From positions 1-29,949 of IMG/VR virus record IMGVR_UViG_3300027861_000143: a stretch of 29,949 nucleotides of DNA, one strand, 5' to 3'. The notes below the pieces were generated by a model. That model had not been told where the DNA came from, did not search any database, and worked only from the letters and a program-made list of their open reading frames with translations. Below, in pieces: positions 12,789 to 29,949 of the stretch (the stretch's first letter is position 1; each line of letters begins with the position of its first letter). The position numbers and the translations under genes were made by a program. This stretch comes from a virus.

Positions 12789-12791
12789 AAA

Positions 12792-14027
12792 ATGGCGTTA
12801 ATAACAGAAACTAATCAACAATATTATCAAGGCGCACAAGGCTTTAGAGGTACTGGTAATGCTCTTACTATTACAACAACTTTTGATACTGATTTAGTTT
12901 TTGGAAGTGTTGATGCGTGGGATCCTAACAATCAATACTACGCTTTAAATAATTTTAAAATATATACTAGTACTACAGGTATACCAGGTAGCTGGAGTGA
13001 ATATCTTTTGGCTTACACTGTTATCAACAATAAGATAACTTTTACTGCAAATCCAGCTAACAACTTGTTTATAGTTGTTCAACTCAAAGTATTAAGTGGT
13101 GGGCAATATGGTAACACACCTGCTGAGGAAGCTATTGGTGATGCGGTTGAAGAAAACTACGGAACATATCAGTATGTAAAGTTATCTGATATAATAGACA
13201 ACTACATGGTTGGTTACGTAGGTGATGGTAAAATAATACAAACAGCTAAAAAATCTGATATATTATTTTTTGCTAAAAGATCTTTACAGGAATTTAGTTA
13301 TGATACTTTAAAGAGTATTAAGTCACAAGAATTAACAATACCACCAAGCTTATCTTTAGTTATACCTCAAGATTACGTTAACTACGTAAACATATCATGG
13401 ATAGACAATCACGGTGTTAAAAGACCTTTATATCCTAATAACAACTTAACTACAAATCCTTATTCTAAATTATTACAAGATGAAAAAGGTATGCCTACTC
13501 AAGATAACTTTGGACAAAGTCTTGAAGGAACATCTTTAACTGTAGAAAGATGGAAAGAAACTAATGAAAATAGATTACTAAACGGAGAAGCTTTAGATCA
13601 ATTTGACAACCTAGCATACGGTATGTACGGTAATGATTTTGGTTCTGGACCCTGGGATTGGGGTAGACTATATGGTTTAGATCCTCAATACTCTCAAAGC
13701 AACGGTTGGTTTGGTATAAACGAAAGAGATGGCTTGTTTACTTTTTCAAGTAATTTAGTAGATAGATTAATAGTGATAGAATACATCTCAGACGGACTTG
13801 CTTATGATTTAGATACTAGAGTACCTAAGATGGCAGAAGAAGCAATGTATTTAAGCATATCATATAATCTACTAGCCAACAGAGCAAACACATCTGAAGG
13901 TATAATAGCAAGATTTAAGAAAGACAAAAGAGCAGCTTTAAGAAACGCTAAGATAAGACTATCTAACATAAAATTAACTGAAATAGTTCAAGTTATGAGA
14001 GGTAAATCTAAATGGTTAAAACACTAA
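12792..14027 (+). CDS. Head-to-tail joining or tail-tube-like protein (411 aa)
   Basis: This protein has a beta-rich N-terminal domain (residues about 1-105, including VFGSVDAWDPNNQYYALNNF), then a helical core at about 125-180 (KLSDIIDNYMVGYVGDGKII, SDILFFAKRSLQEFSYDTLK). That core looks like the helical adaptor fold of head-completion proteins such as P22 gp4 or tail tubular proteins. After a beta part (IPPSLSLVIPQDYVNYVNIS), the last 80 residues are helical (RVPKMAEEAMYLSISYNLLA) with a basic end MRGKSKWLKH. It probably binds under the portal and extends the DNA channel. The homology is by pattern only. Confidence 0.65.
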   Translation: MALITETNQQYYQGAQGFRGTGNALTITTTFDTDLVFGSVDAWDPNNQYYALNNFKIYTSTTGIPGSWSEYLLAYTVINNKITFTANPANNLFIVVQLKVLSGGQYGNTPAEEAIGDAVEENYGTYQYVKLSDIIDNYMVGYVGDGKIIQTAKKSDILFFAKRSLQEFSYDTLKSIKSQELTIPPSLSLVIPQDYVNYVNISWIDNHGVKRPLYPNNNLTTNPYSKLLQDEKGMPTQDNFGQSLEGTSLTVERWKETNENRLLNGEALDQFDNLAYGMYGNDFGSGPWDWGRLYGLDPQYSQSNGWFGINERDGLFTFSSNLVDRLIVIEYISDGLAYDLDTRVPKMAEEAMYLSISYNLLANRANTSEGIIARFKKDKRAALRNAKIRLSNIKLTEIVQVMRGKSKWLKH

Positions 14028-14033
14028 AATTTA

Positions 14034-17000
14034 ATGGCAAACGTTCAGAACTCTTTTATAAAGAGCAAATTAAATAAAGACCTTGACGCTAGGTTATTAC
14101 CTAATGGCGAATACAGAGATGCTAAAAACGTTCAAGTTAGTAGATCTGAAGGTGCTAACGTTGGTTCTTTAGAAAACGTATTAGGTAATAAAAAATTAAA
14201 AGACTTTAATGTTATAACAGGAAGTAGCAGTATGGTTTGTATAGGCAAACTTGTAAGTGACTCCACTAGCGAGGTTTATTTGTTTTTAACGTCATACACG
14301 GATCCAAACCCAAGTCAATTAGAATATACGCCAGGTAGCGAAAACTACATAGTAGTTTATAACCCTTCACTTCCAGATACAGAGTCTTTAAAAGTTTTAG
14401 TCAAAGGATCTTTTCTTAATTTTTCGACTACACATGAAATATATCACGCTAACTTATTAGAAGATTTACTATTCTGGACTGACAATAGAAACCAACCTAG
14501 AAAAATAAATGTAAGTCTTGCTAATCCTACTGGTTCAGCAAATCCAACATACTACGAAACAGAAGATCAAATAAGTGTAGCTAAATACAATCCTTATCAA
14601 CCAATACGACTTTGGCAGAAAAATTTAACATCTGCAGATCCTGTTCCTTATGAAACAACGATGAAAGATGTTAACAGTAAGACATTTCCTAATGGTGCAA
14701 CTGCTTTTACAGGAGGAACCTCAGGTGGTGGTGGTGGCGCATCAATAACTCTTGTTAGTTTAGTTGGTGAAGTTCCTGTTTCTACTAGTCCATATGGAGC
14801 AGCAACTGTTGGTTATATAGCACAACCCGGAGCAGCTATTACACCTATACAAGATTCAAGTAATCCACCTAATCCTGTTGTGGTTAACACTATTGAATAT
14901 GTCCCAGCTATAGCAGGTGGTTTTGAGTGGGAGGTTACTTTAAAAGATATAAATGGAGCAGCTTTTAACTGGCCAACTCTAGTAGCTGGAACAGAAGTTG
15001 TTTTTAATTATAACACTTATTACGATAAAGACTTTGCTGGAGATGAAAATTATTTAGAAGATAAGTTTGTAAGATTTAGTTATAGATTTAAATTTGAAGA
15101 TAATGAATATTCATTAATAGCTCCTTTCACTCAAGTTGCTTTTATACCTAAACAAGATGGGTATTTTATGTACGTAAGAGACGATGCTAAAAACTTTACA
15201 AGTAAAGATGACCAAGCTGATGCTTATAGAAGTACCATAGTTTCTTTTGTTGAAAACAAAGTAGATGCTATAAAATTAATAATACCTTTACCTTTTCCTA
15301 AAAGTACAATACAAGATAGTTTAAAAATAAAAGAACTAGATATAATATATAAAGAGTCTGATGCTTTAGCGCTTAAAGTTATCGAGACTATAGAAATAAC
15401 TGAATTAACATCAGGTGCAGATTCTAGTGTTTTTGAATATGATTATTTATCTAAAAAACCGTATAAAGTATTACCAAGCAGTGATACAACTAGGGTTTAT
15501 GATAAAATACCAGTAAGAGCTTTTGCTCAAGAGATTGCTAGCAATAGAGTTGTTTATGGTAATTTTCAAAACAAACACACGCCACCAACTACGCTAGACT
15601 ACAATGTAACAGTAAGTGCTAAGTCAGATTTTAATTTAAAAGATGGAACAGCAATATCTAGTTCACCAACCGGTAGCGTTGGTATAGGTACTACTATTAC
15701 AATTGGAACAACCACTGGCACTGTGCAAATAGGTAGCATTGTTACAAGTGTTACAAATGGTGTTACAATACCTAGTAACACTTCAGTAACTGGAGGCAAC
15801 TTGTCAACTACGATTACACTGGACAAAGCTGTTACTTTAGTTAATCTTACTAATTTAGTTTTTACAGCCGTAGGAACAGATACTCAAGCAGTAAGCAAAA
15901 TAGAATACCCTAATCACTCTGTAAAACAAAACAGGAATTACCAAGTAGGTGTTGTGCTATCTGATAGATATGGTAGATCTTCAACTGTTATATTGTCTAG
16001 AAGCAATAGTTTAATAGCTGATTCCGCTAGTGGTCTTACTTTTTCAGGAGATACTATATACGCGCCTTATTTGCCAGTTGGCTTAGAGCAATCATCTTGG
16101 CCAGGTAACTCTATTAAGGTTTTATTTAATTCAACTATAGGACCTAATGGTAAAAACGTATTAGATGGTTCTCCTGGTATATACAATGGATACCCAACAA
16201 GCGCTGACTACAATCCATTGGGTTGGTATTCATATAAAATTGTAGTTAAACAAACAGAGCAAGAATATTACAATGTATACTTGCCAGGTATCATGGCTGC
16301 TTATCCAGAAGATACATCTTTAGAAATAGGTATAACATCTCATGCTGTTTTAATAAACGATAATATAAACAAAGTTCCAAGAGACTTAACAGAAGTCGGA
16401 CCTGATCAAAAACAATTTAGAAGCTCTGTTCAGTTATTTGGTAGAGTAGAAAATACTTCAACTGAAGCTGGCTACTTGAGCAGCACTGGTAACGAACAAG
16501 TGTACGATAACGCCGGCGCTTTAACAAATCAATACTACCCAGGTAGAAGCTCTGACACTGTATCAACTATTTCAACTCTTAGAGACTTGTTTGATTATTC
16601 ACCAATCGATCCACCAAGACCAAACTACTTTCCGCAATTATATTTAGTTAACTCAAATCCTTTAGTAGCTAGGATAAGTACAGCTAAACAAATAGGTCAG
16701 ATAGCAACCACTAATTACAGTGTAGCTAGCGCTCAAATAAACGCAAATGCAAGTGGAACTGGGTTTGTCCTTAAGAATGTTATTGGAACACCTGCGCCTC
16801 AAATGATTGTTAGTGGAACAGGTATACCAGATGGTGTAACAGTAGTTGGCTACTCAGGGACTAGCTTGACGGTTAGTCAAACATTAACTTTAGACGAAGA
16901 TGATTTTATATACTTTGTTCCAGGTTTTTCAGCTCCTTTTTTAGGTGAACCTAAAGTTCCTGGATTACAGTATTTAGCTGTGTACGAAACAGAACCGGTT

Positions 17001-18275
17001 GAAAGCTTGTTAGATATATTTTGGGAATCAACCAGTGTAGGCGAAGTTGCAGATTTAAACAACTTAATATTAAACGCTACAGGTGGTGGCGCTGGACTAA
17101 GTGCTAACTTAAGTACTTCACTTTGGTCAGAAGCTTATGTTTTAAACAACAGAATATTTGATGCTAATTTTACTTTAGTTGACGCTTTTGGATCTGAACT
17201 ACTACCTGGAAATATAGTTTCTGTAACACTAGATAGTGTTTCGAATGGTAATGGCGTTAATGTTCAAACAGTTGAAGCTAGTCCATACTTTGAACTAGTA
17301 GGTAACGCACAAGACAATACAATACCTCTTGGGTTTTTTAATATAATACTAAAACAAGAATACATAGATGCTGTTTATTATAGTCAAAACTCTGGAGATC
17401 GTAATTTTACGTTTTTAATATCATGGGAAACGACAGATGGCTTGTCTCCTCCGACTAACACCACTGGTGGACCTCAAGTAGTAAACGCTGGTCCATCAAA
17501 CGTTAGACCTAATGACGCGTCGCCAGGTATAACAACCTCACCAAACAGCTTACAAGGTAGCACTATAATTAGTAACAGATACACGTCTTTAGTCGCAGTG
17601 GCTGATGCAGCTAATGGTTCTTCTAATGCGTTATTAAAAACTAGTGGTATAGCTTGGAGTTTAATAAGCGTAAGCAATCAAACTTCTCCAAATATAGACC
17701 TTGTTAGTCAAGGGTTATTTACTATGACTAACACTGTAGCTTCAGGCTTAAGAAGAGGAACACTAACTAACACTAGTGGAGGTAATATGCCTGCTAGTAT
17801 ATACAATATAACTATAGGTGTAGCTGATGCTGGTGGTCCATCACCTGTTGGAACTAACATATCTTTTATTCTTGACTTAAGAGTTGTGCCTTATTCTGTT
17901 GGATCTGGACTAGTTAATTGGTGTGAGGTAGTAGACGGTCAAGGTGATTGCGTATCTGGCGAAACTAGACAAAATAGATACGTAGCTATAGAGATACAAG
18001 GCGGATCTTTTGATGGTTTTTATGTATACGACATAGGTGAGCAAAGCTTTAGTAGTTGGGTTTCTAATTGCTTTGGAGGTAGTACTATTACTTTAAATTA
18101 TACTGGCAGACAAACTACTATTTCAGGATCACCTATAAATAGTTGTATACCTGCATTTGCAAACACGCTTGCTAGTGCTAAACAAATTTTAGACGCAAGA
18201 AACTATAACAGCAGTGCTGATTATTTAAACTTATTAGCTCAAGATACAACTGGTTTAACATTTGAGATAACATAG
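14034..18275 (+). CDS. Large tail protein, P22 gp10-like DNA-stabilisation type
   Basis: The N-terminus (NSFIKSKLNKDLDARLLPNG, then YRDAKNVQVSRSEGANVGSL) matches the signature of podovirus packaged-DNA stabilisation or tail-hub proteins. The following repeats such as ANLLEDLLFWTDNRNQPRKI suggest beta-propeller blades. At 1413 aa it is about three times the P22 gp10 length. Extra beta domains are inserted: a Gly linker plus domain near residues 222-325, and two GT-rich modules near 535-616 and 895-966. The C-terminal part carries a cadherin-like segment (ASIYNITIGVADAGGPSPVG) and a Cys-containing end domain. It likely closes the channel and exposes adhesive surfaces. Its stop shares one base with the GTG start of the next gene. 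Confidence 0.75.
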   Translation: MANVQNSFIKSKLNKDLDARLLPNGEYRDAKNVQVSRSEGANVGSLENVLGNKKLKDFNVITGSSSMVCIGKLVSDSTSEVYLFLTSYTDPNPSQLEYTPGSENYIVVYNPSLPDTESLKVLVKGSFLNFSTTHEIYHANLLEDLLFWTDNRNQPRKINVSLANPTGSANPTYYETEDQISVAKYNPYQPIRLWQKNLTSADPVPYETTMKDVNSKTFPNGATAFTGGTSGGGGGASITLVSLVGEVPVSTSPYGAATVGYIAQPGAAITPIQDSSNPPNPVVVNTIEYVPAIAGGFEWEVTLKDINGAAFNWPTLVAGTEVVFNYNTYYDKDFAGDENYLEDKFVRFSYRFKFEDNEYSLIAPFTQVAFIPKQDGYFMYVRDDAKNFTSKDDQADAYRSTIVSFVENKVDAIKLIIPLPFPKSTIQDSLKIKELDIIYKESDALALKVIETIEITELTSGADSSVFEYDYLSKKPYKVLPSSDTTRVYDKIPVRAFAQEIASNRVVYGNFQNKHTPPTTLDYNVTVSAKSDFNLKDGTAISSSPTGSVGIGTTITIGTTTGTVQIGSIVTSVTNGVTIPSNTSVTGGNLSTTITLDKAVTLVNLTNLVFTAVGTDTQAVSKIEYPNHSVKQNRNYQVGVVLSDRYGRSSTVILSRSNSLIADSASGLTFSGDTIYAPYLPVGLEQSSWPGNSIKVLFNSTIGPNGKNVLDGSPGIYNGYPTSADYNPLGWYSYKIVVKQTEQEYYNVYLPGIMAAYPEDTSLEIGITSHAVLINDNINKVPRDLTEVGPDQKQFRSSVQLFGRVENTSTEAGYLSSTGNEQVYDNAGALTNQYYPGRSSDTVSTISTLRDLFDYSPIDPPRPNYFPQLYLVNSNPLVARISTAKQIGQIATTNYSVASAQINANASGTGFVLKNVIGTPAPQMIVSGTGIPDGVTVVGYSGTSLTVSQTLTLDEDDFIYFVPGFSAPFLGEPKVPGLQYLAVYETEPVESLLDIFWESTSVGEVADLNNLILNATGGGAGLSANLSTSLWSEAYVLNNRIFDANFTLVDAFGSELLPGNIVSVTLDSVSNGNGVNVQTVEASPYFELVGNAQDNTIPLGFFNIILKQEYIDAVYYSQNSGDRNFTFLISWETTDGLSPPTNTTGGPQVVNAGPSNVRPNDASPGITTSPNSLQGSTIISNRYTSLVAVADAANGSSNALLKTSGIAWSLISVSNQTSPNIDLVSQGLFTMTNTVASGLRRGTLTNTSGGNMPASIYNITIGVADAGGPSPVGTNISFILDLRVVPYSVGSGLVNWCEVVDGQGDCVSGETRQNRYVAIEIQGGSFDGFYVYDIGEQSFSSWVSNCFGGSTITLNYTGRQTTISGSPINSCIPAFANTLASAKQILDARNYNSSADYLNLLAQDTTGLTFEIT
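15640..15880 (+). repeat. Inserted beta module, copy 1 (in the 1413-aa protein)
   Basis: Residues about 536-616 have the pattern VQIGSIVTSVTNGVTIPSNT, then V-GG-LSTTITLDKAV and a closing LVFTAVG strand. The same plan (G-V-G-GIP-T-VV, LT-SQ/NQ, hydrophobic closing strand) recurs in copies 2 and 3. Boundaries are approximate. Confidence 0.5.
16717..16930 (+). repeat. Inserted beta module, copy 2 (in the 1413-aa protein)
   Basis: Residues about 895-966 contain MIVSGTGIPDGVTVVGYSGT followed by LTVSQTLTLDEDDFIYFVPG. The SGTGIP-G-TVV...LTVSQ pattern is the clearest version of the module. It interrupts an otherwise continuous ARISTAKQIG...SAPFLGEPKVPGLQ region. Boundaries are approximate. Confidence 0.55.
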
Positions 18276-18694
18276 TGAAAGGTATTGATGATCCAGTTGC
18301 TGTAAAATCATTAAAAAAGTTATTAAAATTAGATTGGAGTCATTATAATTTATATTTAGTAGGTGGTTTAATACAAGGATGGGAAACAAAAGATATAGAC
18401 GTGGCTGTAACTGGACCAATAATAAATCATGATAAGTTTGTTGAGTTAATTACAGAAGCAAGCAAGATTTATTTAATAGATATATCTTATCAAAAAAAAA
18501 TACAAGTAAATCTAATAGGTGAAGCAGAGCACATGAAACCAGTAAGAATAGACGTAGGTAGACTAAGTAAACCTAATAAACAAGTTAATTCTTATTTTGA
18601 AAACGGACTATGGTTTAGGATACTTAGTTATCCTATGCTTAAACAAATAAAAAACAAAAGAGTATATACAAGCCAACCAGTGTTAATACACTAG
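18275..18694 (+). CDS. Nucleotidyltransferase-fold protein (139 aa) in the tail operon
   Basis: This small protein has the Pol-beta-type nucleotidyltransferase signature: LYLVGGLIQGWETKDIDVAV, with G30-G31, then the D40-I-D42 catalytic pair. A third acidic residue is D93 in VRIDVGR on a later strand. This is the full carboxylate triad expected for metal-dependent nucleotidyl transfer. At 139 aa it is a minimal catalytic domain without an obvious substrate domain. It uses a GTG start overlapping the upstream stop (TAGTG), so it is translationally coupled to the 1413-aa tail gene. Possible roles include nucleotidylation of a host protein or tRNA, or an antitoxin or anti-defence function. The fold is well supported; the target is unknown. 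Confidence 0.75.
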   Translation: MKGIDDPVAVKSLKKLLKLDWSHYNLYLVGGLIQGWETKDIDVAVTGPIINHDKFVELITEASKIYLIDISYQKKIQVNLIGEAEHMKPVRIDVGRLSKPNKQVNSYFENGLWFRILSYPMLKQIKNKRVYTSQPVLIH

Positions 18695-18735
18695 TATTGC
18701 TTGTAATTTACAGTAAAAATAAGTAATAATTAATC

Positions 18736-20487
18736 ATGGCAGGAGCGGTAATAGAAGTAAAATACTTTAACACTTTCGTTTTGAAAAAAACAGCTACACA
18801 AATAGAGGACACTATAGTGTGGAACGGGTCTTTTGGTATTCCAAAAGATAAGGGTGGTTACAATGTAGTTGACGCTGATGTTACTTCTGATACTAATTGG
18901 GCTATTGAAGAATCTAGAATAAGAGGTGGTTACAACAATACTAATGTAGATTACGGAGTTAGAGCTTATTTAGTAGAAGAAGATCCTGCTTCAACAATAA
19001 GATTTAATAGTTTGATATACTCAGGTATATTTAACTCTAGAACAGGTATAAATAATACTAACGTATTTTCTTCTGCCGATGATATTACAAAAAGCGCAGA
19101 TCCAGCTAACGCTAGTATACAAAAACTATATGCTGAAGATACTAACTTAATTGTATTTCAAGAATACAAAGTAAGTAGAGCTTTAATAGATAAAGACGCT
19201 ATATATTCTGCTGAAGGAAACGCTAGTGTAACTTCTAGTAACTTAACAATAGGTGTTATACAACCTTATGCTGGTAGGTTTGGTATAAGTAAAAACCCAG
19301 AAAGTTTTGCTACATATGGTTACAATAAGTATTTTTCTGATAAAAATAATAATGTTATAATGAAATTATCTAACTCAGGTTTAGAAGAAATTTCTAAATA
19401 TGGTATGATAGATTATTTTAGAGATGAACTAAATAACATAGACATCGGCATTGACGAAGGAAAAGTAAGAGGTGGTTATGATATACACAGTGACCAATAC
19501 GTGGTGTCTACTCAAAACAGTGATGGGTCAGGTTATAACACAGTTTCTTGGGATGAAACCGTAAAAGGTTGGACTAGTTTTTATGACTATAAACCAACTC
19601 AAATGTTTAGTTTAAGGAATAAGTTTTACTCAACAGGTAAAGATAATTTTTACGGAAGTCTAAAACCTGTTTGGGGAGTTAGATCATATGACAGTTTATA
19701 CGAGCATTACTCAACTGAAGTTAATAGGTCTTTTTTCTATGAAAGAAATTATCCTTCTACAGTCACTTTTATATTTAACCCTAGCCCTTCAACTAGCAAA
19801 AACTTTAAAACAATAAGTTACGAAGGTATGAACGGTTGGCAGTTAAATACTTTGATATCTGATAACACAGCTAAAGATTATAACGCTTTAATACCAGGTT
19901 GGGATATTTATAACGATACTGCTAATTCATCTCGTAGCTACGTTGGAGGCGAATACGTTATAGCAGACGCGAGCGCTAAAGCTGGAGCTGCATCAACAAA
20001 TACAACTGTAGTCTTAGCAAATGTTGTAGGTGTTATAGCTGTAGGAGCAAGCGTTACTGGTACAGGTGTCGCTGCTAACACAGTGGTTGTTAGTTTTGAT
20101 GCAATCACAAAAGTGCTAACAGTAAATCAAAATTTAGGCATTGCTTTGAATGCTGCTTTATCATTTTACTTAGTTGTTAATAGAGTTAATTATACTACTG
20201 CTTTTGGAAATGCAAACCCTCCTTTACCTAGGTTTCATGCTGGGTTTGATAGAAAAGAAAATAGATACGTTGCTAACTTAGTAAATAACAGCGAAGCAAG
20301 TCATGGAGAAATAATATGGGGTAATGAAATGACTGGTGTTAAAGGTTATTATGTTACGGGTATATTTTCAACTGACGGCGATTATTCAACAAATGTTAGC
20401 TATAATAATAATACAGCTACAGATCCAGGAGGTGAAAAACAGTTGTTTGCCGTTGGTTCTGATTATACAAAAAACAATGGTTACTAA
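18736..20487 (+). CDS. Large virion or tail protein (583 aa)
   Basis: It is a beta-rich protein with repeated RGGYN/RGGYD motifs (RIRGGYNNTNVDYG near residue 60, VRGGYDIHSDQYVVS near 245). It also has blade-like stretches such as GVRAYLVEEDP, GWTSFYDYKPTQMFSLRN and FYERNYPSTVTFIFNPSPST. The pattern suggests a beta-propeller, a continuation of the gp10-like architecture in a separate polypeptide. Near residues 410-485 a GT/Val-rich module (VGASVTGTGVAANTVVVSF, LTVNQNLGIALNAA) interrupts it. There is no enzyme motif. It follows the nucleotidyltransferase gene after a 41-base gap and uses an A/T-rich leader. It is probably a component of the tail tip or hub. Confidence 0.65.
   Translation: MAGAVIEVKYFNTFVLKKTATQIEDTIVWNGSFGIPKDKGGYNVVDADVTSDTNWAIEESRIRGGYNNTNVDYGVRAYLVEEDPASTIRFNSLIYSGIFNSRTGINNTNVFSSADDITKSADPANASIQKLYAEDTNLIVFQEYKVSRALIDKDAIYSAEGNASVTSSNLTIGVIQPYAGRFGISKNPESFATYGYNKYFSDKNNNVIMKLSNSGLEEISKYGMIDYFRDELNNIDIGIDEGKVRGGYDIHSDQYVVSTQNSDGSGYNTVSWDETVKGWTSFYDYKPTQMFSLRNKFYSTGKDNFYGSLKPVWGVRSYDSLYEHYSTEVNRSFFYERNYPSTVTFIFNPSPSTSKNFKTISYEGMNGWQLNTLISDNTAKDYNALIPGWDIYNDTANSSRSYVGGEYVIADASAKAGAASTNTTVVLANVVGVIAVGASVTGTGVAANTVVVSFDAITKVLTVNQNLGIALNAALSFYLVVNRVNYTTAFGNANPPLPRFHAGFDRKENRYVANLVNNSEASHGEIIWGNEMTGVKGYYVTGIFSTDGDYSTNVSYNNNTATDPGGEKQLFAVGSDYTKNNGY
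19963..20190 (+). repeat. Inserted beta module, copy 3 (in the 583-aa protein)
   Basis: Residues about 410-485 show VGASVTGTGVAANTVVVSF, then KVLTVNQNLGIALNAALSFY, the same plan as SGTGIP-GVTVVG/LTVSQ in the 1413-aa protein. Its codons (for example GTCGCTGCT, GACGCGAGC) differ slightly from the flanks. It sits between YVGGEYVIA and a NRVNYTTAFG continuation. Boundaries are approximate. Confidence 0.55.
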
Positions 20488-20505
20488 TAATAAAAAAATA
20501 AAATT

Positions 20506-21171
20506 ATGCCAATAGCAGGAATAATAGGTGGAGCAGCTTCTGTAGTCAGTGGCATCTTTGGAGCGGCTTCAGCTAGAAAAGAAGCTAGAAGAAAAGCTAG
20601 AAAAGCTAGAAAACTAGAAAGAAAACTAAATCAATTAGAAGCTAACAGACAAGAAATTATAAATCCTTACGAGGATTCAACTAGCTTAAGTAGCATGATG
20701 AGTAATCCTTTTGCTACACTATCTGTATCAACAGCTGCTACGGAAATTCAAATGGAACAAACTGATATAGCTTTAGCTAACACTTTGGATACTATAAGAC
20801 AAACTGGTGGTGGCGCTGGTGGAGCAACCGCTTTGGCTCAAGCTGCTTTACAAAGCAAAAAGAATATTGCAGCTGGTATAGAGCAACAAGAAAAAGCTAA
20901 TGATGACAAAAGAGTTGAAGGTGAAAAACAACTACAAAACCAATTAGTAAGTGAAGAACAAAGGATGCAAGGTTTAGATGCTGCTGGTAAATCATTTGTT
21001 TATAATGAAACAGAAAGAAGAGAACAACAACAACTTGATAGAGTTTCAAATCAAATAGCAGCATTAAGAGGTCAAGAGTCGCAGGCAAGAGCAGATGCAA
21101 CTGGAGCTATTACTGGAGCGCTTGGGTCTATAGCTGGTATAGCTGGAGCTGGAGGATTTGATAAACCGTAA
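20506..21171 (+). CDS. Internal virion or ejection protein, T7 gp14-like position (221 aa)
   Basis: The N-terminus is a Gly/Ala-rich hydrophobic segment (MPIAGIIGGAASVVSGIFG), followed by a strongly basic coiled helix (ARKEARRKARKARKLERKLN). The middle has a GGGAGGATALAQAAL segment and long Gln-rich helices (EKANDDKRVEGEKQLQNQLV, ETERREQQQLDRVSNQIAAL). It ends in another Gly/Ala hydrophobic tail (GAITGALGSIAGIAGAGGF). Amphipathic Ala/Gly-rich ends with a helical centre are typical of podovirus internal or pilot proteins that line the ejection channel. It is the first of three genes in the order small-medium-giant, resembling T7 gp14-gp15-gp16. The call is by composition and context. Confidence 0.65.
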   Translation: MPIAGIIGGAASVVSGIFGAASARKEARRKARKARKLERKLNQLEANRQEIINPYEDSTSLSSMMSNPFATLSVSTAATEIQMEQTDIALANTLDTIRQTGGGAGGATALAQAALQSKKNIAAGIEQQEKANDDKRVEGEKQLQNQLVSEEQRMQGLDAAGKSFVYNETERREQQQLDRVSNQIAALRGQESQARADATGAITGALGSIAGIAGAGGFDKP

Positions 21172-21176
21172 AAAAA

Positions 21177-22277
21177 ATGGAAAACAAAAACGCACATTAT
21201 AATCTTGTAATAAAACAAGTTAACGAAAGTAATTCAATGGCTTATGACGAAAGTTATGTAGCTAGTTCTACTGATAATAATTTTCGCATATTAGAAAAAG
21301 CTTATGCTGGTACAGCAACTGCTTATGCTAAGTTTAAAATGGCTGTAGACTCAAACAAGTGTCGTGAAACAGGTTGTGAGTACGAGATGAAACAGATGCA
21401 ACAACTTAAAGATTTTCCAAAACAATCACTAGAGTTTATAGAATTAGTTGTGGATCAATTATCTACAACTGATGAACCTTATTACGATGTTAATAATAAC
21501 TACGTATACATGGTAGCTAACTATATGATGAATGCTAAGCCTGGTTTTTCTAGAACAGAAGGATATAATATAGAGTTGTTTTTATTAGAAAATGGTTCTC
21601 AAGAATTAATATTTGATGGACCTTTGTTTGATAAAAAACTAGTTATAAATAGCTCTACGTTAACGGCGTTAGTAGATTCTGGAACAGATTTAATAGCTGA
21701 AACTCCAGATATAAACAAAGACATGCTAAGACTTTTAACTGAAGTAGGTGTATTTACACCAGACATGATTGGTGAAAATGAAGAACTTACACCTGGTGCT
21801 ACTATATCTGATGAGTTTGTTTTAAAAAACCCTGACGGATCTTATGATTACGAAATAATAGACGTAGGTATGGGCAAAGGTAGAAACATACTAAAGTTTG
21901 ACTTAGATAAAATAAAAAGAAAAGCTGATCCATTTATAAATGCAGAAGTAGCGGGTTTACTATCGCAAGAACAAGAAGCTGTAGCTGCTTGGAATATGTT
22001 TATAGCTAGAGGTACTAGCGTAGAAGAAGACGCACAAATGGAACAGAATGCTAACGCTGGTAGTTTAGCTTGGTCTTACGAAAAAGATTTACCTTTGATG
22101 CCTAAAAACAAAGAATTGTTTGAGTCAAAGTATAAAGATTATTTTATGAATAACTATTTGTCTCAGTTTACAACTAATAAGTTACCAACAGTAGAAGAAG
22201 ATGCAGCAGTATTTGATTTAGCGGAAGCAAAAAAAGCTAAAGCTCAAAAATTTATGGACGATAATAAATTAAATTAA
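21177..22277 (+). CDS. Probable internal virion protein (366 aa)
   Basis: This acidic, mostly helical protein starts MENKNAHYNLVIKQVNESNS, with a helical YAGTATAYAKFKMAVDSNKC region containing two Cys (KCRETGCEYE). It continues with KQSLEFIELVVDQLS, a mixed middle (YNIELFLLENGSQELIFDGP) and a helical C-terminal end (LAEAKKAKAQKFMDDNKLN). No enzymatic motif is seen. It lies between the gp14-like gene and the giant gene, whose ATG begins at the base after its stop. This corresponds to the middle gene of an ejectosome cassette (T7 gp15-like position), an inference from order only. Confidence 0.6.
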   Translation: MENKNAHYNLVIKQVNESNSMAYDESYVASSTDNNFRILEKAYAGTATAYAKFKMAVDSNKCRETGCEYEMKQMQQLKDFPKQSLEFIELVVDQLSTTDEPYYDVNNNYVYMVANYMMNAKPGFSRTEGYNIELFLLENGSQELIFDGPLFDKKLVINSSTLTALVDSGTDLIAETPDINKDMLRLLTEVGVFTPDMIGENEELTPGATISDEFVLKNPDGSYDYEIIDVGMGKGRNILKFDLDKIKRKADPFINAEVAGLLSQEQEAVAAWNMFIARGTSVEEDAQMEQNANAGSLAWSYEKDLPLMPKNKELFESKYKDYFMNNYLSQFTTNKLPTVEEDAAVFDLAEAKKAKAQKFMDDNKLN

Positions 22278-25200
22278 ATGACATTACTACAATACATAAC
22301 CTCTTTACAAGACGAAGGATTATCTCAAGAAGAAATCTTTGCTAAATCACAAGAGTGGAAAAAAAATAATCCTCAAGAAAAACCAATTGAAGAAAAAACT
22401 GATGAAGTTGAGGTAAAGACAGACGACTCCCAGACAAAGGATCCAAGCTTGGAGTCGAAAGACAGTACAGGATCCGAGTCGGAAGATGGGAATTCACAGC
22501 CTGCAAACAATAGCAAACTAACGCTAGAGCAACAAGCTAAATACGACAAAATAACCGCCGTTGCGAAACCAAACGAAGTCATAAATGATAAAGGTTATGA
22601 TTTTAAATACGACAATGATGGAGTGTATTACTATAAACCTGAAGGTTCTGAAGATGATAAATGGGAAACGTATGAAGATAAACAAGGTCCTTCTAATTTA
22701 TCTATAGCTTCTAAATTTGGTCACTCTAGTTTTGATACTAGCGATTACTATAAAACAAAAAAATTAATAAAAAAAGGTGAAGAACTTTATGTTGGTGTAG
22801 ATGGTCAACTTGAGGTTTCAGATAATAAACAATACACTTTAACAGCTGATCAATTAAAGTTAGAAAAAGAGTTTATAAAATCAACATCTTTAAATGACGA
22901 AGATGATTCTAAAATTTTAAAACAAACTAATGATTGGTTTGCTAAAACTACTGTTCCAGAATATAAAATAGAGTATGAAAGAAAAGGTTCTGGTAGTGAT
23001 GCCTATCAACAAAAATTAAAAACAAGGATTGGTGATAAACCTAACCCTGAATGGGTGGAGGCTCAAATAAAATCTAAAAAAGCTTGGGATAAATTAAGTA
23101 CAAAACCAAAAAATATTTCTGAGCAAGCTTGGATTGAGCAGAATATGAAAGACACATACTCATCTAACCTAACACAAAAGAAAAAAGAAGATAAAATAGA
23201 GAGCTGGATAGAAAATCAAGAAACTGGTTTTGATTGGAAAAAAGCGGCTATGATGTTTTCACCAGCAGGAGCTTCTATTAAAGTTAAAGATGTCTTTGAT
23301 AGAAGCGACAAGCAAAAAATTATTGAAGGAATACAAAAAGTAAGAAAGCTTAATTTAGATAATAAATCAAAAGACGCCACTAACTTTGCTGATGTTGCAA
23401 AAAATACTATAGATGGTTTAAGTACTCAAATTGAATTGTTATCTAAAGCTAAGTATCAAACGCCGGAAGAAGCAAAAAAAGGAAAAGCTTTAATAACTAA
23501 GTTACATAACAAAAGGAAAGATGTAATAAAGCTTTACGAAAAAAAAGTAGATAATCTTAACGAGATGCTACTTAAACCAGAGTACAAAGACATAAGCACA
23601 AGACTTGATTATTTAGAAAGAAATTTTAATACGGTAGCTATTTACAGTGAAAACGTAAAAGTAGGTATAGCCAGTGCTGGTGTAGCTTTAGCAGATCTTG
23701 CTCACATGGCTGCCAATGTGCCTAATGAAATTGGTATAAATGAGAATCCTTACGCTAGCAGAGCGCTTAGTATAATTTCTCCTATAAGCTCTTTAGCTTC
23801 AAAATTCGTAGCAACTCAACCATATAAAGAAACAAGAGAAAAAATGAAATCTCAAGTTTCTAACTACATAGATCAAACCATGCAGGGTATAGCTCACTCT
23901 CAGTCTTTAAGTGACTTAAAAGACGGTAATGATTGGGGTAGATATTTTAGTACTATGCTTGGTAGTCAAACACTTAATACTGCTATTATGTTTGGAACAG
24001 GTGGTATGGCTTTACCTATATTAACATCTCAAGCTATGGGAACTAAGTATGGTGAAATAGAAGCTGAGAATAAAGAAAGAGAAGAAGCTTACAACAAGTA
24101 TATAGCAGACGGAGGGGATCCAGATTCTGAAGATGCTCCACCTAGATCTTATACGCCTTTTCAAATGTACACAGCGGTAATGGGTAGTGGTCTTTTAGAG
24201 TATGGCTCTGAAAGAATATCTTTAGGTATAATAGGTAGGTCTAGATCTGCTTTTAAAGCTATGGGTCCTAGTGTAAAACAAGGGTTTTCTAGACAAATAT
24301 CTAGCTTAATGACAAGACAAGGTGCTACTAGAGCTGCAAAAACAGCTGGCTATTACACATTAGACGTAGGTAAAGAATCTTTTTCTGAAGGTGGAGTTGA
24401 GTTAGGTAATAATATATTTGATAGACACGTATTAGGTAAGGATGTCAATTATTTTGGTGGAGTTCCAGACTCTATGTTTAGTGGTGCAATCATGTCTGGA
24501 TTAGTATATAAAGCACCTTCTTTAGCCGCTAATATATCTTATATGGTTCAAGGACCAGACACTAACACTAGAATAGCTAACAACAGAGAAAAAATATTAC
24601 AACTACAAAATACTATAGCATCTAATCCTGAAATGTCAGACGCGAATAGAGCTAGACTAAATGATCAAGTAGTAGATTTAATTAAAAAGTCTAGTAATGA
24701 AATAAATAAAACATTAAATAGATTTAGCGTTATGGACAGGTCTGAAATAGATACTTTGTCCGACCTTGAGTTGCAGGTTAATAAAAAAAGAATAGCTATT
24801 GACGAAGTAAAAGCTGACGCTAATTTTAATGACAAAGATGCTGAAATATCTAGAATAAAAAACGAAATAATAGAACTTGAAATAGAAAAAAACAATGTTC
24901 TAGAACCTTACATACAAGCTGACACTAAGGAAAGTAAAAAAGGATTATCTTCAACTGAAACTGTTGAATTAACATCTAGGATGCAGGAAGGTGCTGACGT
25001 TGTTGCTGATCAATTAGGTAATGTAGGTATTGATAGATTTGATACAACAGAAGATATTATAGGTGCATTTGAAACTTTAAAAGCTGAGGGAATAAATCTA
25101 GAAATAGAAACAAACGAAGACGGTTCTATTAAAGATGCCAAAGATCAAGGTTATGGTATAATAGCAACCTTACCTGATGGCACTCAGCAAATAATTATAA

Positions 25201-28200
25201 ATAACGCTTCTAGTCAAGCTGATGGTACTATACCTGCTGACAACCACGAATTAGTGCATGCTTTTTCTAGTAAAATGGATCCTGCTAAGCTTGCTAAAAT
25301 GGGTATGGATTTAAAAAACAAATTAGATAACGATCCTTACGTAGAATTAGACGCTAATACTAAATCTTTATTACAAGAATATGAAGCTGATTTAAATAAT
25401 GGTAAGATAAGTGAGGCTACGTTTTACGAAGAAGTAATGGCTGTTACTAGTGATGCTTTAAATACAGGAAGTATTAAGATAAGCGATCCAGGTAAATTTG
25501 CTCAAACATGGAATTTCTTAGAAACTATAGGTTGGAAACAAAGCTTTAAAGACGGTGATCAAGTTATAGACTTTTTAAAAGACTTTAACAAAGACGTTTT
25601 AAGTGGCAAAGGTTTGTCACAGCAAACTTTAGATAAAGCTGAGGTTGACATGGGATTAGAAACTGAAGTAGACCTTGGAACTGTTAAGTCGTCTAAAGCT
25701 TCTCAAGCTAAAAACCAAAAGCTAGTAAGAGAAGCTAAACGTGGAGATCTTAAAGCTGTAGATGCTTTAATAAAAGATAACTCAGGTATTATATTACAAA
25801 AGCTAGGATTTAATAAAGACATTGGAGATGTAACCTCACAAGATATTTTAAATGTAGTTAAAGATCAAGCTATAGGTAAAGGTTTATTTAAAGGTAGACA
25901 AAAACCTTTGTTTGATAACTATAACCCTACTAAAGGAGAAGTTAGTACTTACCTAGGTGATATAGTTGGGAAACGTAAAGCTGAGATATTTAAAGCTGCT
26001 GGATTAGATGCTACTAAATTTGATACTGTAAGCACAGACGCTCCGCAAGCACAGCAAGTAGCTGATACTACCGAGCAAACTGAGTTTGATGAAGTGACTA
26101 ATGAAGAAAAAGGTAGAAAGAAAGTGTATCCTTCTAACATGCCTTCTATTTCTAAAAACATAAAACCAGAGTCAATAGCTTCTATAAACGAAGGTGCTAA
26201 AAGAGATATACTACTAAACGCTAGTAAAGGTATAGATGCTATAGTTTCTGGTATAAAATCAGAAGGAAAAATCACAGCAAAAATTTTAGGTAAAGATGTT
26301 GGTACTTTTTCTAAAGGTTGGCCAAAGTTTGTTAATGAGTTAGTCAATGATGGTTTAACTAAAGTTATTCCAGCTGCAGCTTTAAAAAGAAGGTTTGGCA
26401 ATGTTCTTGATATAAAGAAAACAGGTACTACTCCTACTAAAAGAGTAAACCCAGTAACAGGTAAAGTAACTACTTTTAACAAACCAGTATATGAAATACC
26501 TAAAGCAAATAATCAAAATTTAATAGATTATTTTACAGGTCAAGAAAAAAGAAGAACGTCGTTACTAGAAGTTCTAGGACAAGATTTAGTTGTTGAACAA
26601 CTTCAAGAGTTAAAAAACGACTCTGACTTTATGACAAAGCTAGATTCATTAACAGATGGTAAAGCATCTGAAATAATGGATAGTATTGATAGCAAGTTAG
26701 ATGCTAGAAACTTAGAAGATACTTCGCTTGATACTGTTAAGGCTAGCAAGAAAAAAATAAAAAATGCAGCTGACAATATAGATATTGACTCTAAAATAAA
26801 AGATCAATTTGTAGATAAAGTTGAAGCTATTTTAGAAAAAAACCCTGAAGTAACTCTTGAAGAGGCTATAGAGTTTGAAGCGGCTAGAATAGGTAAGAGT
26901 AGAGGTTTTGCTTACGAGAATGTTATAATAGATAAGCTTAAAAAATTAAAAATACCTGGCTTTAAAGTTTCTGGTTTAGCTGGAGGTAATGCGGTTGGAA
27001 TACCAGATTTTGCTTCTACAATATTTGATTCAAATTTTGACGTAGAAGTTAAATTAGAAAAAGCTCAATATAGTAGTGTTACTTTAAAGCATAGAAATGA
27101 ATTAACTACTTTTAGTAAAGACAAAGAATATAGTTTTGTTGATAGATTAACTAAAGATCTTATCAGTAAAGCAAAAAAACCTTTAGCAGAATACAGAAAA
27201 AAAGCTGGAGAATTAGGTGCTGACTTAGATCTTTATGACAAAACTGGTAAATTACCTTTAGATATATATACGCAGCTTCAGAAAGAAGGTTTCCAAAAAG
27301 CTATAACTCAAACTGCAAAATTTAATCAAGATATAATAAGTGAGCTTTATCAGAAAAAAATACCTCCTACTAATTATATTCAAATAAAAAACAAAGGTTT
27401 ATTTTCAATGGGTTCTAATCCTTTAAACCTACCTATACCGCAATTTAAAGCTGATGTAAATGTTACTTTAAGAGTTTCTAGAGGATCAAGAACAGATCTT
27501 AACGGAGTTGAAATGACGACAATGAACCTAAGAATATTACCTGACAACTTAACAAACTTAGGTGTTAGTGATTTTAGCTTAGACAATGTAAGTCAAATGG
27601 AGTCAATGATGAATACTCCTCAAGTTAAAATGTTAGAACTAAACGAACAAGCTAATGAAAATATAAACAACCCTATATTACCAGATGCAATAAAGTTTTC
27701 TAAGAAAAAAGGAAGTAATACAATTATTGAAGCTATGACTAATGCTGATAAAGCTTTAGAGCTAGCTAGAAAATTAAATCAACCGGTTAAAAAAATAAGA
27801 GTATTTGATTTTGACGACACTTTAGCTAAAACTAATAGTCAAGTATTAGTAACAACTATAGATGGTAAGACTAGAAAAATAAATGCTACTCAGTTTGCTT
27901 TAGAGTCTCAGCAATTAGAAGCTGAAGGAGCTGAGTTTGATTTTAGTGAATTTAGTCAAGTTATAGATGGTAAAAAAGGACCATTATTTGATTTAGCTAA
28001 AAAAATAGCAGATTCTCCTGGAAAAAGAGATATGTTTATATTAACAGCTAGACCTCAAAACGCTGCAAACGGCATTAAAACTTTTTTAGATGGTATTGGA
28101 TTAAACATACCTATAGAAAATATAACAGGATTACAAGATGGAGCTCCAGAAGCTAAAGCTAGATGGATGGTAGAAAAAGCTGCTGAAGGTTACAATGATT

Positions 28201-29949
28201 TTTACTTTGCAGATGATGCTTTAAAAAATGTAAGAGCAGTTAAAGATGTTTTAAGTACTGTTGATGTTAAATCTAAAGTTCAATTAGCTAAAGCTAGTAA
28301 GAAAAAAGTGTTTAATAAAGTCTTTAATGATATAATAGAGAATAGCACAGGTATAAAATCATACAAAGTATATTCACCTGCAAAAGCGCAAACAATCGGC
28401 GCTAGCAAAGGTAAATTTGATTTTCTTATACCAGCTTCAGCAGAAGATTTTACAGGGTTATTATATAAAACCTTAGGTAAAGGTAAGGTTGGTGATGCTC
28501 AAATGGCTTTTTACAAAACTAATTTACTTGATCCTTACAATAGAGCTGAAATAGCTGTGGTAAACGCTAAGATAGCAGCTGCAAATGACTTTAAGGCATT
28601 AAAGAATAATTTAAAAACTTTACCTAAAAGTTTATCTAAGTTAACTGGAGTAGGTAAATTTACTTTTTCACAAGCTTCTCGTGTAGCTGTATGGACAAGA
28701 CAAGGTATGACTGTACCAGGTTTATCTAAAACAGATCTTAAACAATTAAATGACTTTGTTGATAACAATGCTGAGTTAAATACTTTTGCAGATGAGCTTA
28801 TAAAAATACAAAAAGGAAAACCATATCCTGCACCTACAAAGACATGGGTTAGTGGAACTATAACAAGTGATATAACTACAGAAATAAACAAAGTCAATAG
28901 AAAAGAGTACATGCAGGAGTTTCAAGAAAATGCTGACATAATTTTTAGCGATGAAAACATGTCAAAACTTGAAGCTGCTTACGGACCTAAGTATGTTGAA
29001 GCTTTAAAAGATAATCTACGTAGAATGAAGTCAGGCTCTAATAGACCGATAGGAGGTTCTAGAGTTGTTAACGAAGTATTAGATTGGCTAAACAATTCAG
29101 TTGGTGCTGTCATGTTCTTAAACACTAGATCTGCAATACTACAAACTATATCTGCGGTTAACTTTGTTCAAGTCAGTGGACCTAATAATTTACTAGCAGC
29201 AGGTAAAGCTTTTGCTAATCAAAAACAATACTGGAAAGATTTCATGACATTAATGAATTCACCTTATTTAGTTGAAAGACGTAATGGTTTAAAAATAAAT
29301 GTTAGTGAATCTGAAATAGCAGATGCTGTGGCTGAATCTAAAAACAAACCAAAAGCTGCTTTAGCTTATTTATTAAGCAAAGGTTTTGTAATGACTAGGT
29401 TTGCAGATAGTTTTGCTATTGCTTCTGGAGGTTCTACTTTTTATAGAAACACTGTTGATGCTTTAGTTAAAAGCGGTATGGACCAAAAGTCGGCTGAGAA
29501 AAAAGCTTTTGATGATTTTAGAGCTTTAGCGGAAGAAAGTCAACAATCAAGTAATCCTAGTAGAATAAGCCAACAACAAGCTTCAGCAGCTGGTCGTGTT
29601 ATATTAGCGTTTGCTAATACACCGATGCAGTATGCTCGTATAATAAAAAAATCTAGTCAAGATCTTATAAACGGTAGAGGTGACTGGAAATCTAATGTAT
29701 CTAAAATAGCTTATTACGGCGCTATGCAAAACGTAGTGTTTAACGCTTTACAACAAGCTTTATTTGCTTTAGCTTTTAGTGACGATGAAGAAGAAAAAGA
29801 AAAACAAAAGAAAGATAAGACCGGTAGAATAGTAAACGGTATGGTTGATTCTTTAATAAAAGGAGCAGGTATACAAGGTCAAGCTGTTATTGCAATTAAA
29901 AACGCTATAATTAAAATAGCTGAAGAGGCTGATAAAAAATCACCAGAGT
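22278..29949 (+). CDS. Giant multi-enzyme polyvalent virion protein, 3' end outside the window
   Basis: The frame opens with ATG directly after the previous stop and stays open to the last base (at least 2557 codons), so the gene is partial. The N-terminus (MTLLQYITSLQDEGLSQEEI) leads into an acidic disordered linker, then helical and Gly-rich hydrophobic parts near residues 460-480 and 555-590. Domains in order: gluzincin-like peptidase (HELVH at 990-994, EEVMA at 1051-1055), an unassigned domain (about 1142-1486), a PD-(D/E)XK-like core (E1547, D1577, E1590, K1592), a HAD phosphatase (D1844, D1846, T1923, K1960, D1979) and a long C-terminal region (FANTPMQYARIIKK) with hydrophobic helices. 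It is probably packaged and ejected with DNA. No RNA polymerase signature was seen. Confidence 0.85.
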   Translation, partial: MTLLQYITSLQDEGLSQEEIFAKSQEWKKNNPQEKPIEEKTDEVEVKTDDSQTKDPSLESKDSTGSESEDGNSQPANNSKLTLEQQAKYDKITAVAKPNEVINDKGYDFKYDNDGVYYYKPEGSEDDKWETYEDKQGPSNLSIASKFGHSSFDTSDYYKTKKLIKKGEELYVGVDGQLEVSDNKQYTLTADQLKLEKEFIKSTSLNDEDDSKILKQTNDWFAKTTVPEYKIEYERKGSGSDAYQQKLKTRIGDKPNPEWVEAQIKSKKAWDKLSTKPKNISEQAWIEQNMKDTYSSNLTQKKKEDKIESWIENQETGFDWKKAAMMFSPAGASIKVKDVFDRSDKQKIIEGIQKVRKLNLDNKSKDATNFADVAKNTIDGLSTQIELLSKAKYQTPEEAKKGKALITKLHNKRKDVIKLYEKKVDNLNEMLLKPEYKDISTRLDYLERNFNTVAIYSENVKVGIASAGVALADLAHMAANVPNEIGINENPYASRALSIISPISSLASKFVATQPYKETREKMKSQVSNYIDQTMQGIAHSQSLSDLKDGNDWGRYFSTMLGSQTLNTAIMFGTGGMALPILTSQAMGTKYGEIEAENKEREEAYNKYIADGGDPDSEDAPPRSYTPFQMYTAVMGSGLLEYGSERISLGIIGRSRSAFKAMGPSVKQGFSRQISSLMTRQGATRAAKTAGYYTLDVGKESFSEGGVELGNNIFDRHVLGKDVNYFGGVPDSMFSGAIMSGLVYKAPSLAANISYMVQGPDTNTRIANNREKILQLQNTIASNPEMSDANRARLNDQVVDLIKKSSNEINKTLNRFSVMDRSEIDTLSDLELQVNKKRIAIDEVKADANFNDKDAEISRIKNEIIELEIEKNNVLEPYIQADTKESKKGLSSTETVELTSRMQEGADVVADQLGNVGIDRFDTTEDIIGAFETLKAEGINLEIETNEDGSIKDAKDQGYGIIATLPDGTQQIIINNASSQADGTIPADNHELVHAFSSKMDPAKLAKMGMDLKNKLDNDPYVELDANTKSLLQEYEADLNNGKISEATFYEEVMAVTSDALNTGSIKISDPGKFAQTWNFLETIGWKQSFKDGDQVIDFLKDFNKDVLSGKGLSQQTLDKAEVDMGLETEVDLGTVKSSKASQAKNQKLVREAKRGDLKAVDALIKDNSGIILQKLGFNKDIGDVTSQDILNVVKDQAIGKGLFKGRQKPLFDNYNPTKGEVSTYLGDIVGKRKAEIFKAAGLDATKFDTVSTDAPQAQQVADTTEQTEFDEVTNEEKGRKKVYPSNMPSISKNIKPESIASINEGAKRDILLNASKGIDAIVSGIKSEGKITAKILGKDVGTFSKGWPKFVNELVNDGLTKVIPAAALKRRFGNVLDIKKTGTTPTKRVNPVTGKVTTFNKPVYEIPKANNQNLIDYFTGQEKRRTSLLEVLGQDLVVEQLQELKNDSDFMTKLDSLTDGKASEIMDSIDSKLDARNLEDTSLDTVKASKKKIKNAADNIDIDSKIKDQFVDKVEAILEKNPEVTLEEAIEFEAARIGKSRGFAYENVIIDKLKKLKIPGFKVSGLAGGNAVGIPDFASTIFDSNFDVEVKLEKAQYSSVTLKHRNELTTFSKDKEYSFVDRLTKDLISKAKKPLAEYRKKAGELGADLDLYDKTGKLPLDIYTQLQKEGFQKAITQTAKFNQDIISELYQKKIPPTNYIQIKNKGLFSMGSNPLNLPIPQFKADVNVTLRVSRGSRTDLNGVEMTTMNLRILPDNLTNLGVSDFSLDNVSQMESMMNTPQVKMLELNEQANENINNPILPDAIKFSKKKGSNTIIEAMTNADKALELARKLNQPVKKIRVFDFDDTLAKTNSQVLVTTIDGKTRKINATQFALESQQLEAEGAEFDFSEFSQVIDGKKGPLFDLAKKIADSPGKRDMFILTARPQNAANGIKTFLDGIGLNIPIENITGLQDGAPEAKARWMVEKAAEGYNDFYFADDALKNVRAVKDVLSTVDVKSKVQLAKASKKKVFNKVFNDIIENSTGIKSYKVYSPAKAQTIGASKGKFDFLIPASAEDFTGLLYKTLGKGKVGDAQMAFYKTNLLDPYNRAEIAVVNAKIAAANDFKALKNNLKTLPKSLSKLTGVGKFTFSQASRVAVWTRQGMTVPGLSKTDLKQLNDFVDNNAELNTFADELIKIQKGKPYPAPTKTWVSGTITSDITTEINKVNRKEYMQEFQENADIIFSDENMSKLEAAYGPKYVEALKDNLRRMKSGSNRPIGGSRVVNEVLDWLNNSVGAVMFLNTRSAILQTISAVNFVQVSGPNNLLAAGKAFANQKQYWKDFMTLMNSPYLVERRNGLKINVSESEIADAVAESKNKPKAALAYLLSKGFVMTRFADSFAIASGGSTFYRNTVDALVKSGMDQKSAEKKAFDDFRALAEESQQSSNPSRISQQQASAAGRVILAFANTPMQYARIIKKSSQDLINGRGDWKSNVSKIAYYGAMQNVVFNALQQALFALAFSDDEEEKEKQKKDKTGRIVNGMVDSLIKGAGIQGQAVIAIKNAIIKIAEEADKKSPE
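24987..25500 (+). other. Gluzincin-like metallopeptidase domain in the giant protein
   Basis: At 25245-25259 the codons give HELVH (residues 990-994), preceded by the strand-like TQQIIINNASSQADG as in zincins, where an edge strand precedes the active helix. About 60 residues later, ATFYEEVMAVTSDAL (E1051-E1052) supplies the glutamate third ligand in the EExxAxxSD form typical of gluzincins in phage polyvalent proteins. Boundaries are approximate. Confidence 0.7.
25683..25700 (+). repeat. K-x-S-K boundary motif 1 (VKSSKA)
   Basis: Residues 1136-1141 read VKSSKA, immediately after the peptidase domain and before a charged linker (SQAKNQKLVREAKRGDLKAV). It is the first and most divergent of four related motifs. 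Confidence 0.45.
26736..26756 (+). repeat. K-x-S-K boundary motif 2 (VKASKKK)
   Basis: Residues 1487-1493 read VKASKKK, between the unassigned domain and the nuclease-like domain. They are flanked by an acidic low-complexity stretch (DARNLEDTSLD) and a Lys/Asn-rich start. Confidence 0.55.
26901..27090 (+). other. PD-(D/E)XK-like nuclease core in the giant protein
   Basis: The segment contains GFAYENVIIDKLKKL (helix with E1547), then AGGNAVGIPDFAST with D1577. Thirteen residues on comes FDVEVKLEKAQYSS, with E1590 and K1592. This is the order E...PD...ExK of the PD-(D/E)XK nuclease superfamily, and the spacing is normal. Restriction-type or Holliday-junction-type specificity cannot be inferred. 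Confidence 0.65.
27690..27710 (+). repeat. K-x-S-K boundary motif 3 (IKFSKKK)
   Basis: Residues 1805-1811 read IKFSKKK, between the nuclease part and the HAD domain. They follow NPILPDA and are followed by GSNTIIEAM. Confidence 0.55.
27795..28245 (+). other. HAD phosphatase domain in the giant protein
   Basis: All four HAD motifs are visible: VFDFDDTLAKT (motif I, D1844 nucleophile and D1846), MFILTARPQ (motif II, T1923), APEAKARWM (motif III, K1960) and YFADDALKN (motif IV, D1979-D1980). The cap between motifs I and II is about 75 residues. The motif set is complete, so an active phosphatase is likely; the substrate is unknown. Confidence 0.8.
28287..28307 (+). repeat. K-x-S-K boundary motif 4 (AKASKKK)
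   Basis: Residues 2004-2010 read AKASKKK, just after the HAD domain and before a new globular segment (FNKVFNDIIENSTGIKSY). It is identical to motif 2 except for its first residue. Confidence 0.55.

Follow-up and report, generated by a model that had tools for sequence, protein, structure and literature searches.

A giant gene in the virion module of a podovirus combines zincin, PD-(D/E)XK-type nuclease and HAD phosphatase signatures

The locus and its phage

The window analysed here, one viral contig in its full length of 29,949 bases (IMGVR_UViG_3300027861_000143), ends within a giant gene whose multi-domain product is best filed, judging from its sequence, as a phage polyvalent or ejection-type protein. 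The gene (22278..29948, + strand) starts with an ATG at 22278, immediately behind the stop of the preceding gene, and runs as a single open frame of 2557 codons up to the last base, its 3′ end missing, in agreement with the first-pass annotation of a frame of at least 2557 codons. Complete giants in related viral contigs (n = 29) measure ~2300-3600 aa; those from IMG/VR align from residue 1, and those of close relatives continue ~170 residues past the end of the window. Because complete relatives align from the first residue and run further, we estimate that ~170 C-terminal residues are missing from the window giant.

The TerL of this phage is 62% identical to that of an uncultured podovirus and 43% identical to those of the Flavobacterium elemo phages, and its MCP shares 40-47% identity with the same podovirus/elemo group and with a Maribacter phage. 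From TerL to the muzzle, all genes except a small ORF at 18275-18694 are homologous to and collinear with those of elemo (Elemovirus) and Cellulophaga phi38:1, a set that includes TerL, portal, MCP, tail genes and the muzzle. The muzzle (tail tip) protein is of the crassvirus type and is encoded on the + strand in a first part at 14034..18275 (PF25731, 2.9e-11; phrog_14478) and a second part at 18736..20487 (PF25729, 5.8e-8; phrog_14478). Because of the TerL and MCP identities, the crassvirus muzzle matches and the gene order shared with elemo and phi38:1, we place the phage, on sequence comparison, as a podovirus in the neighbourhood of Elemovirus, Pachyviridae and Pervagoviridae; its host is very likely a member of the Bacteroidota. 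The muzzle gene itself is split, its two ORFs matching successive parts of the relatives' single muzzle protein, and the 139-aa ORF between them looks nucleotidyltransferase-like by eye (GG...DID). Elsewhere in the window, a 104-aa ORF at 1161-1475 carries an HExxH of its own (HEKIH) and a weak Pfam match to the putative metallopeptidase DUF6782 (E 0.002).

Two genes separate the muzzle from the giant, and both had previously been described as of internal-virion type. The first (20506..21171, + strand) encodes a gp14-like protein of 221 aa with a hydrophobic, Gly-rich N-terminus; it matches virion or structural proteins of Gundel_1 (gp72, 4e-7) and phi38:1 (gp99, 2e-4), with a weak match to Pfam T7_gp14 (E 0.04). 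The second (21177..22277, + strand), of 366 aa, is gp15-like by position only, being syntenic with elemo gp19, phi38:1 gp100 and Gundel gp73, counterparts to which comparison gave no sequence match. By the same synteny the giant comes third in a gp14-gp15-gp16-like trio within the virion module and is the largest of the three: in the isolates, the corresponding places are taken by a small virion protein, one of middle size and, last, a giant annotated 'structural protein' (phi38:1 gp99-gp100-gp101; elemo gp20-gp19-gp18; Gundel_1 gp72-gp73-gp74), which bears out the T7 gp16-like position first proposed for the gene.

The isolate giants are also related to it in sequence. Residues 430-770, a Gly/Ala-rich helical region (23565..24587, + strand), are common to phi38:1 gp101, elemo gp18 and Gundel gp74; a profile of this region matches the phi38:1 giant at 1.4e-21 and the elemo giant at 8e-12, the elemo giant also matches the window's zincin profile (6e-7), and the Gundel giant matches the profile of the C-terminal region, Gundel sequences being part of the set from which these profiles were built. 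This homology to isolate proteins annotated as structural supports a probable virion role for the window giant. Results from Pfam, PHROGs and PDB included no match that would relate the giant to gp16 or vRNAP. The 'membrane-like segments' noted earlier did not hold up, as the highest 19-residue Kyte-Doolittle mean in the chain (460-481) is only 1.33, under the usual cut for a transmembrane helix.

Catalytic signatures along the chain

Scans of the whole giant against Pfam, NCBIfam and PHROG gave nothing decisive. Motif sets for three enzyme classes, which the first-pass annotation had read in this one frame, are present and stand above chance by their conservation in relatives, supporting a chain that probably joins a zincin, a domain with a PD-(D/E)XK signature and a HAD phosphatase. 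Several unrelated enzymatic domains in one chain, here recognized by conserved catalytic sets, and a location among late virion genes are both features that mark polyvalent proteins.

The putative zincin-type metallopeptidase domain occupies residues ~895-1110 (24960..25607, + strand), with its HELVH zinc motif at residues 990-994 (25245..25259, + strand). The zincin motif consists of HExxH and a downstream Glu in a second helix; its residues here, H990, E991, H994 and E1052, do not vary among 50 divergent relatives, and Iyer et al. (PMC5512222) give the same ligand set for polyvalent MPTases, with the Glu following HExxH in a later helix. In a model of the relative L002, the HExxH and Glu motifs fall in helices 67-77 and 126-143 of a domain with pLDDT ~70-87 and no confident PDB fold match. 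A PDB profile search with the zincin returned chance-level matches only, and Peptidase_M78 was weakly matched by two of the 50 relatives; we propose the zincin identity at the level of motifs. The site is kept in most of the family, with HExxH in 78/86 non-redundant giants. Because the remaining 8/86 are without it, and because the giant of L036 (1504-9582), which has a PD-(D/E)XK domain in its slot, reads SEELYH at this site, zinc catalysis would not be universal among giants.

The candidate PD-(D/E)XK-type nuclease domain follows at residues ~1497-1740 (26766..27497, + strand). E1547, D1577 and E1590-V-K1592 provide the helix Glu, the Asp and the (E/D)xK of this superfamily in the expected order and spacing, and they are invariant in an alignment of 42 members (the window and 41 homologues), all of which, the window domain included, match phrog_26930 (function not assigned). 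The best PDB profile match is a Holliday junction resolvase (7bgs), weak at E 0.21 but belonging to the expected superfamily and in register from the helix Glu through the ExK. An AlphaFold model of the region, which only three sequences covered, had a pLDDT <50, and we assign this domain, too, at motif level. Ankyrin-like PDB matches were rejected as low-complexity and outside the catalytic motifs. Profile comparison with the phi38:1 'Holliday junction resolvase' gp11 gave no match, and one scan of bacterial genomes yielded no relatives of the nuclease.

The case for the HAD phosphatase domain, at residues 1815-2010 (27720..28307, + strand), is strong. The four HAD elements on a Rossmann-like core (DxDxT, T/S, K and DD) appear as DFDDT at 1844-1848, LTAR at 1922-1925 (T1923), K1960 and ADD at 1978-1980, and 35 divergent sequences keep D1844, D1846, K1960, D1979 and D1980 without exception. 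The domain was modelled with pLDDT ~80-90, and class C acid phosphatases headed its PDB fold matches, with a probability of 1.00 and an E of 0.026 for a multi-domain query. Of the three folds whose absence would have told against the first-pass annotation, only the HAD was recovered with confidence by modelling. In addition, 21 of the 35 HAD members match phrog_415 'polynucleotide kinase' (best 6e-8), to which the window domain itself aligns over 167 residues (9e-4), and 10/35 give weak, sub-threshold matches to TIGR01664. Together with the class C acid phosphatase folds, these matches qualify the earlier assignment of a phosphatase for 'phosphorylated substrates': the HAD class stands, and the domain looks like a polynucleotide 3′-phosphatase or nucleotidase rather than a general phosphatase.

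Behind the HAD lies a conserved region that is all-helical in the model (residues 2010-2557; 28305..29948, + strand), occurs in essentially all giants and continues past the contig end. HAD and C-terminus form a constant core in ~100 related giants; a profile scan of viral contigs for this core matched at least 588 stretches, and 112 ORFs with parts of it were examined. A PDB profile search with HAD plus C-terminus gave chance matches only and no solved relative of the C-terminal region. Several family members depart from the common layout. The HAD is interrupted after motif I by an insert of ~150-200 residues in L023 (residues 2226-2423), L024 (2429-2621), L059, L062, L068, L070, L072 and L073, possibly a cap domain or an intein, and by a shorter one of ~30 residues in L010. 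L024 also has a second, separate copy of the HAD and C-terminal core on the opposite strand near its main giant gene (17138-20371, −). The giant gene is found in two consecutive ORFs in L019 (9224-17532), with the break after the HAD, and in L026 (2077-12178), with the break between zincin and HAD, through either a genuine split or a sequencing error.

Profile comparison found neither HAD nor nuclease in the searched isolate giants of phi38:1, elemo and Gundel, which keep the 430-770 region; some giants are without HExxH; and the large ejection proteins of N4 and T7 are channel parts (PMC12633501). Each of these points favours a giant whose main role is structural, as part of an ejection channel or scaffold, with its enzymes used only in assembly (as in zincin maturation) or surviving as relics. 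However, the HAD catalytic residues are invariant across the 35 divergent members, and those of the nuclease are invariant in both fused and free forms. As relics would not retain both sets, relic status is unlikely, and we consider a mainly structural giant an unlikely account overall.

An exchangeable slot ahead of a constant core

Within the ~270 residues that precede the HAD, an 'EH' dipeptide is found in 93/95 distinct giants among the matches listed, against an expectation of 0.08. The only exceptions, L036 and L086, are also the only ones of the 95 with a PD-(D/E)XK domain, and in the window, L119 and L120 the nuclease is likewise present and EH absent. The slot before the HAD is thus exchangeable and holds either an EH domain or a nuclease, strictly one or the other. 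In the EH family the E-H pair is invariant, usually within EEHxxPA; PDB and PHROG searches gave no match, and no relation to the nuclease was detectable. An HNH reading, prompted by the EH..P motif, was not supported, since neither PDB nor PHROG gave a match and a profile comparison with a single HNH protein gave none either.

The exchange can be followed at the DNA level in L002, a near-identical relative that carries the EH domain. The two contigs are 92-95% identical over 12781-26762, share no DNA homology from there to 27795, and then resume at 79% identity. This swap interval (26762..27795, + strand) reflects either a replacement of ~1 kb within the gene or a crossover through which the segment behind it was acquired as well. 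An assembly chimaera in the window contig would likewise leave the nearest relative without the nuclease and a sharp break in similarity on both sides, but four other contigs (L036/L117, L086/L118, L119 and L120) also carry this nuclease in the slot, within a single reading frame that includes the HAD. This recurrence largely refutes a chimaera, which we reject as very improbable.

The nuclease also occurs outside giants, as a standalone protein of 225-300 aa in ~60 viral contigs. An (L/I/M)xE site lies just ahead of the core in 26/31 distinct standalone N-termini, 10 of the 27 starts checked conform fully to M-x-x-[FY]-x-x-[FY]-[LIM]-x-E, and the same leader pattern opens 39/519 ORFs in the contigs with standalone nucleases versus 0/766 in those of the giants. 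The first ten residues of T4 IPIII direct proteins into the head, residues 4 and 7 serving targeting and residues 8 and 10 processing (PMC9026906), positions with which the leader pattern agrees. T4-like phages likely package the phrog_26930-type nuclease in the head, if these leaders act as they do in IPIII. In contigs L121-L182, which look T4-like, many ORFs begin with a capsid-targeting-like leader (for example L156:4472-5287 and L144:7739-8962), and a recurrent leader-bearing family (MKKFSxxLxEEKNTHMEHIED...) adjoins the nuclease; the leader-bearing ORFs may represent a set of packaged, injected proteins.

A proposed role after entry and its known counterparts

We favour, with a probability of roughly 0.6, an explanation in which the giant is an ejected innermost virion protein whose zincin, slot nuclease and HAD act after entry. 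As part of a podovirus with a crassvirus muzzle and Bacteroidota-type hosts, it would take the innermost place among the internal virion proteins, in the manner of gp16 or N4 vRNAP, and would be packaged in the head, threaded partly unfolded through tail and muzzle together with the two smaller ejection proteins, and refolded in the cell after entry. The zincin would then release or activate modules of the chain, or act on host targets; with the precedents in PMC5512222, self-processing seems as likely as cutting of host proteins. DNA cutting would fall to the slot nuclease, which in the window is a Holliday-resolvase-like PD-(D/E)XK domain, and the HAD would trim nucleotides or phosphate ends, whether left by this cutting or present beforehand. 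Among the elements of this explanation, the open frame, the conserved motifs, the homology of the HAD, the synteny of the virion genes and the swap are observed, and packaging, ejection, refolding, self-processing, catalysis and substrates are what we infer from them. Our confidence is greatest in the open frame, the conservation and the swap, strong for the HAD, and declines through the motif-level zincin and nuclease and the homology-based virion residence to ejection, catalysis and substrates.

In a less favoured alternative, the giant would also be packaged and ejected, but the target of its nuclease and HAD would be the entering phage DNA instead of that of the host, the two enzymes serving to process its ends, mend breaks made by defence systems, recombine it or circularise it. 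That the nuclease's closest solved relative is a Holliday junction resolvase, that the HAD resembles the polynucleotide-kinase 3′-phosphatase, an end-repair enzyme, and that one standalone nuclease (L035) sits among genes that by eye are uvsX-, helicase- and MazG-like would all suit such roles. Many other standalone copies, however, have a capsid-targeting-like leader and lie next to further leader-bearing genes, and the usual slot occupant is the different, uncharacterised EH domain, so we regard action on the phage's own DNA as doubtful. A bolder and less probable reading, which we put forward tentatively, concerns the family as a whole: giants widespread among Bacteroidota podoviruses would be delivered by the virion with a constant polynucleotide-kinase-type HAD behind a single interchangeable catalytic slot, for nucleic-acid cutting and end processing at the very start of infection, the slot normally holding the EH domain, possibly a new nuclease class, and sometimes instead a PD-(D/E)XK nuclease from a family packaged separately in the heads of T4-like phages.

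These results extend the polyvalent and ejection-protein theme to abundant marine Bacteroidota podoviruses, and suggest two unrelated packaging routes by which virions bring the same nuclease family into cells. The window and L002 amount to a natural experiment, in which two phages share 92-95% DNA identity along 14 kb and yet have a different domain at one place in a giant gene, and because occupancy is strictly one-or-other, slot function is testable. The uncharacterised EH domain, which almost every relative carries, invites further discovery.

The giant and its parts can be set against several known systems. N4 vRNAP is an ejected protein of 3500 residues with a zincin-like HExxH domain, a large helical C2 and two T7 gp14/gp15-like partners (PMC12633501); like it and T7 gp16-type proteins, the window giant is the largest of three internal virion genes, and it shares with N4 vRNAP a zincin-type HExxH domain and a large all-helical C-terminal region. 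Unlike N4 vRNAP, it carries a nuclease and a HAD, an RNA polymerase domain was not found, and our searches detected no sequence or fold similarity between the two. Behind the muzzle of crassvirus virions lie very large cargo proteins, thought to be ejected partly unfolded (PMC10172136), and the window phage has a crassvirus-type muzzle; the phi-crAss001 cargo proteins gp45-gp50 differ in that crassvirus giants are RNA-polymerase-associated, and no homology to the window giant was found. The standalone phrog_26930 nucleases of marine phages have the same E-D-ExK residues, whereas they are proteins of 225-300 aa, most with a capsid-targeting-like leader, and the window copy is embedded in a giant. 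Similarly, the HAD shares its motif set and fold with the polynucleotide kinase 3′-phosphatase (phrog_415, TIGR01664) and the class C acid phosphatase/nucleotidase e(P4), but is embedded in a giant virion-module protein in which a kinase domain was not found. A further likeness is to the phage polyvalent proteins of Iyer, Burroughs, Anand, de Souza and Aravind (2017, PMC5512222), very long chains of disparate, shuffled enzymatic domains that include a zincin MPTase and are encoded among virion genes; in that text HAD/haloacid or phosphatase domains are unmentioned and 'restriction endonuclease' appears in a reference title only. The window giant thus fits a kind already known, the phage polyvalent or large ejection protein, and differs from it in a fixed core of HAD and helical C-terminus and in one slot with alternative domains; this domain combination, with its constant HAD core and interchangeable slot, appears to be new.
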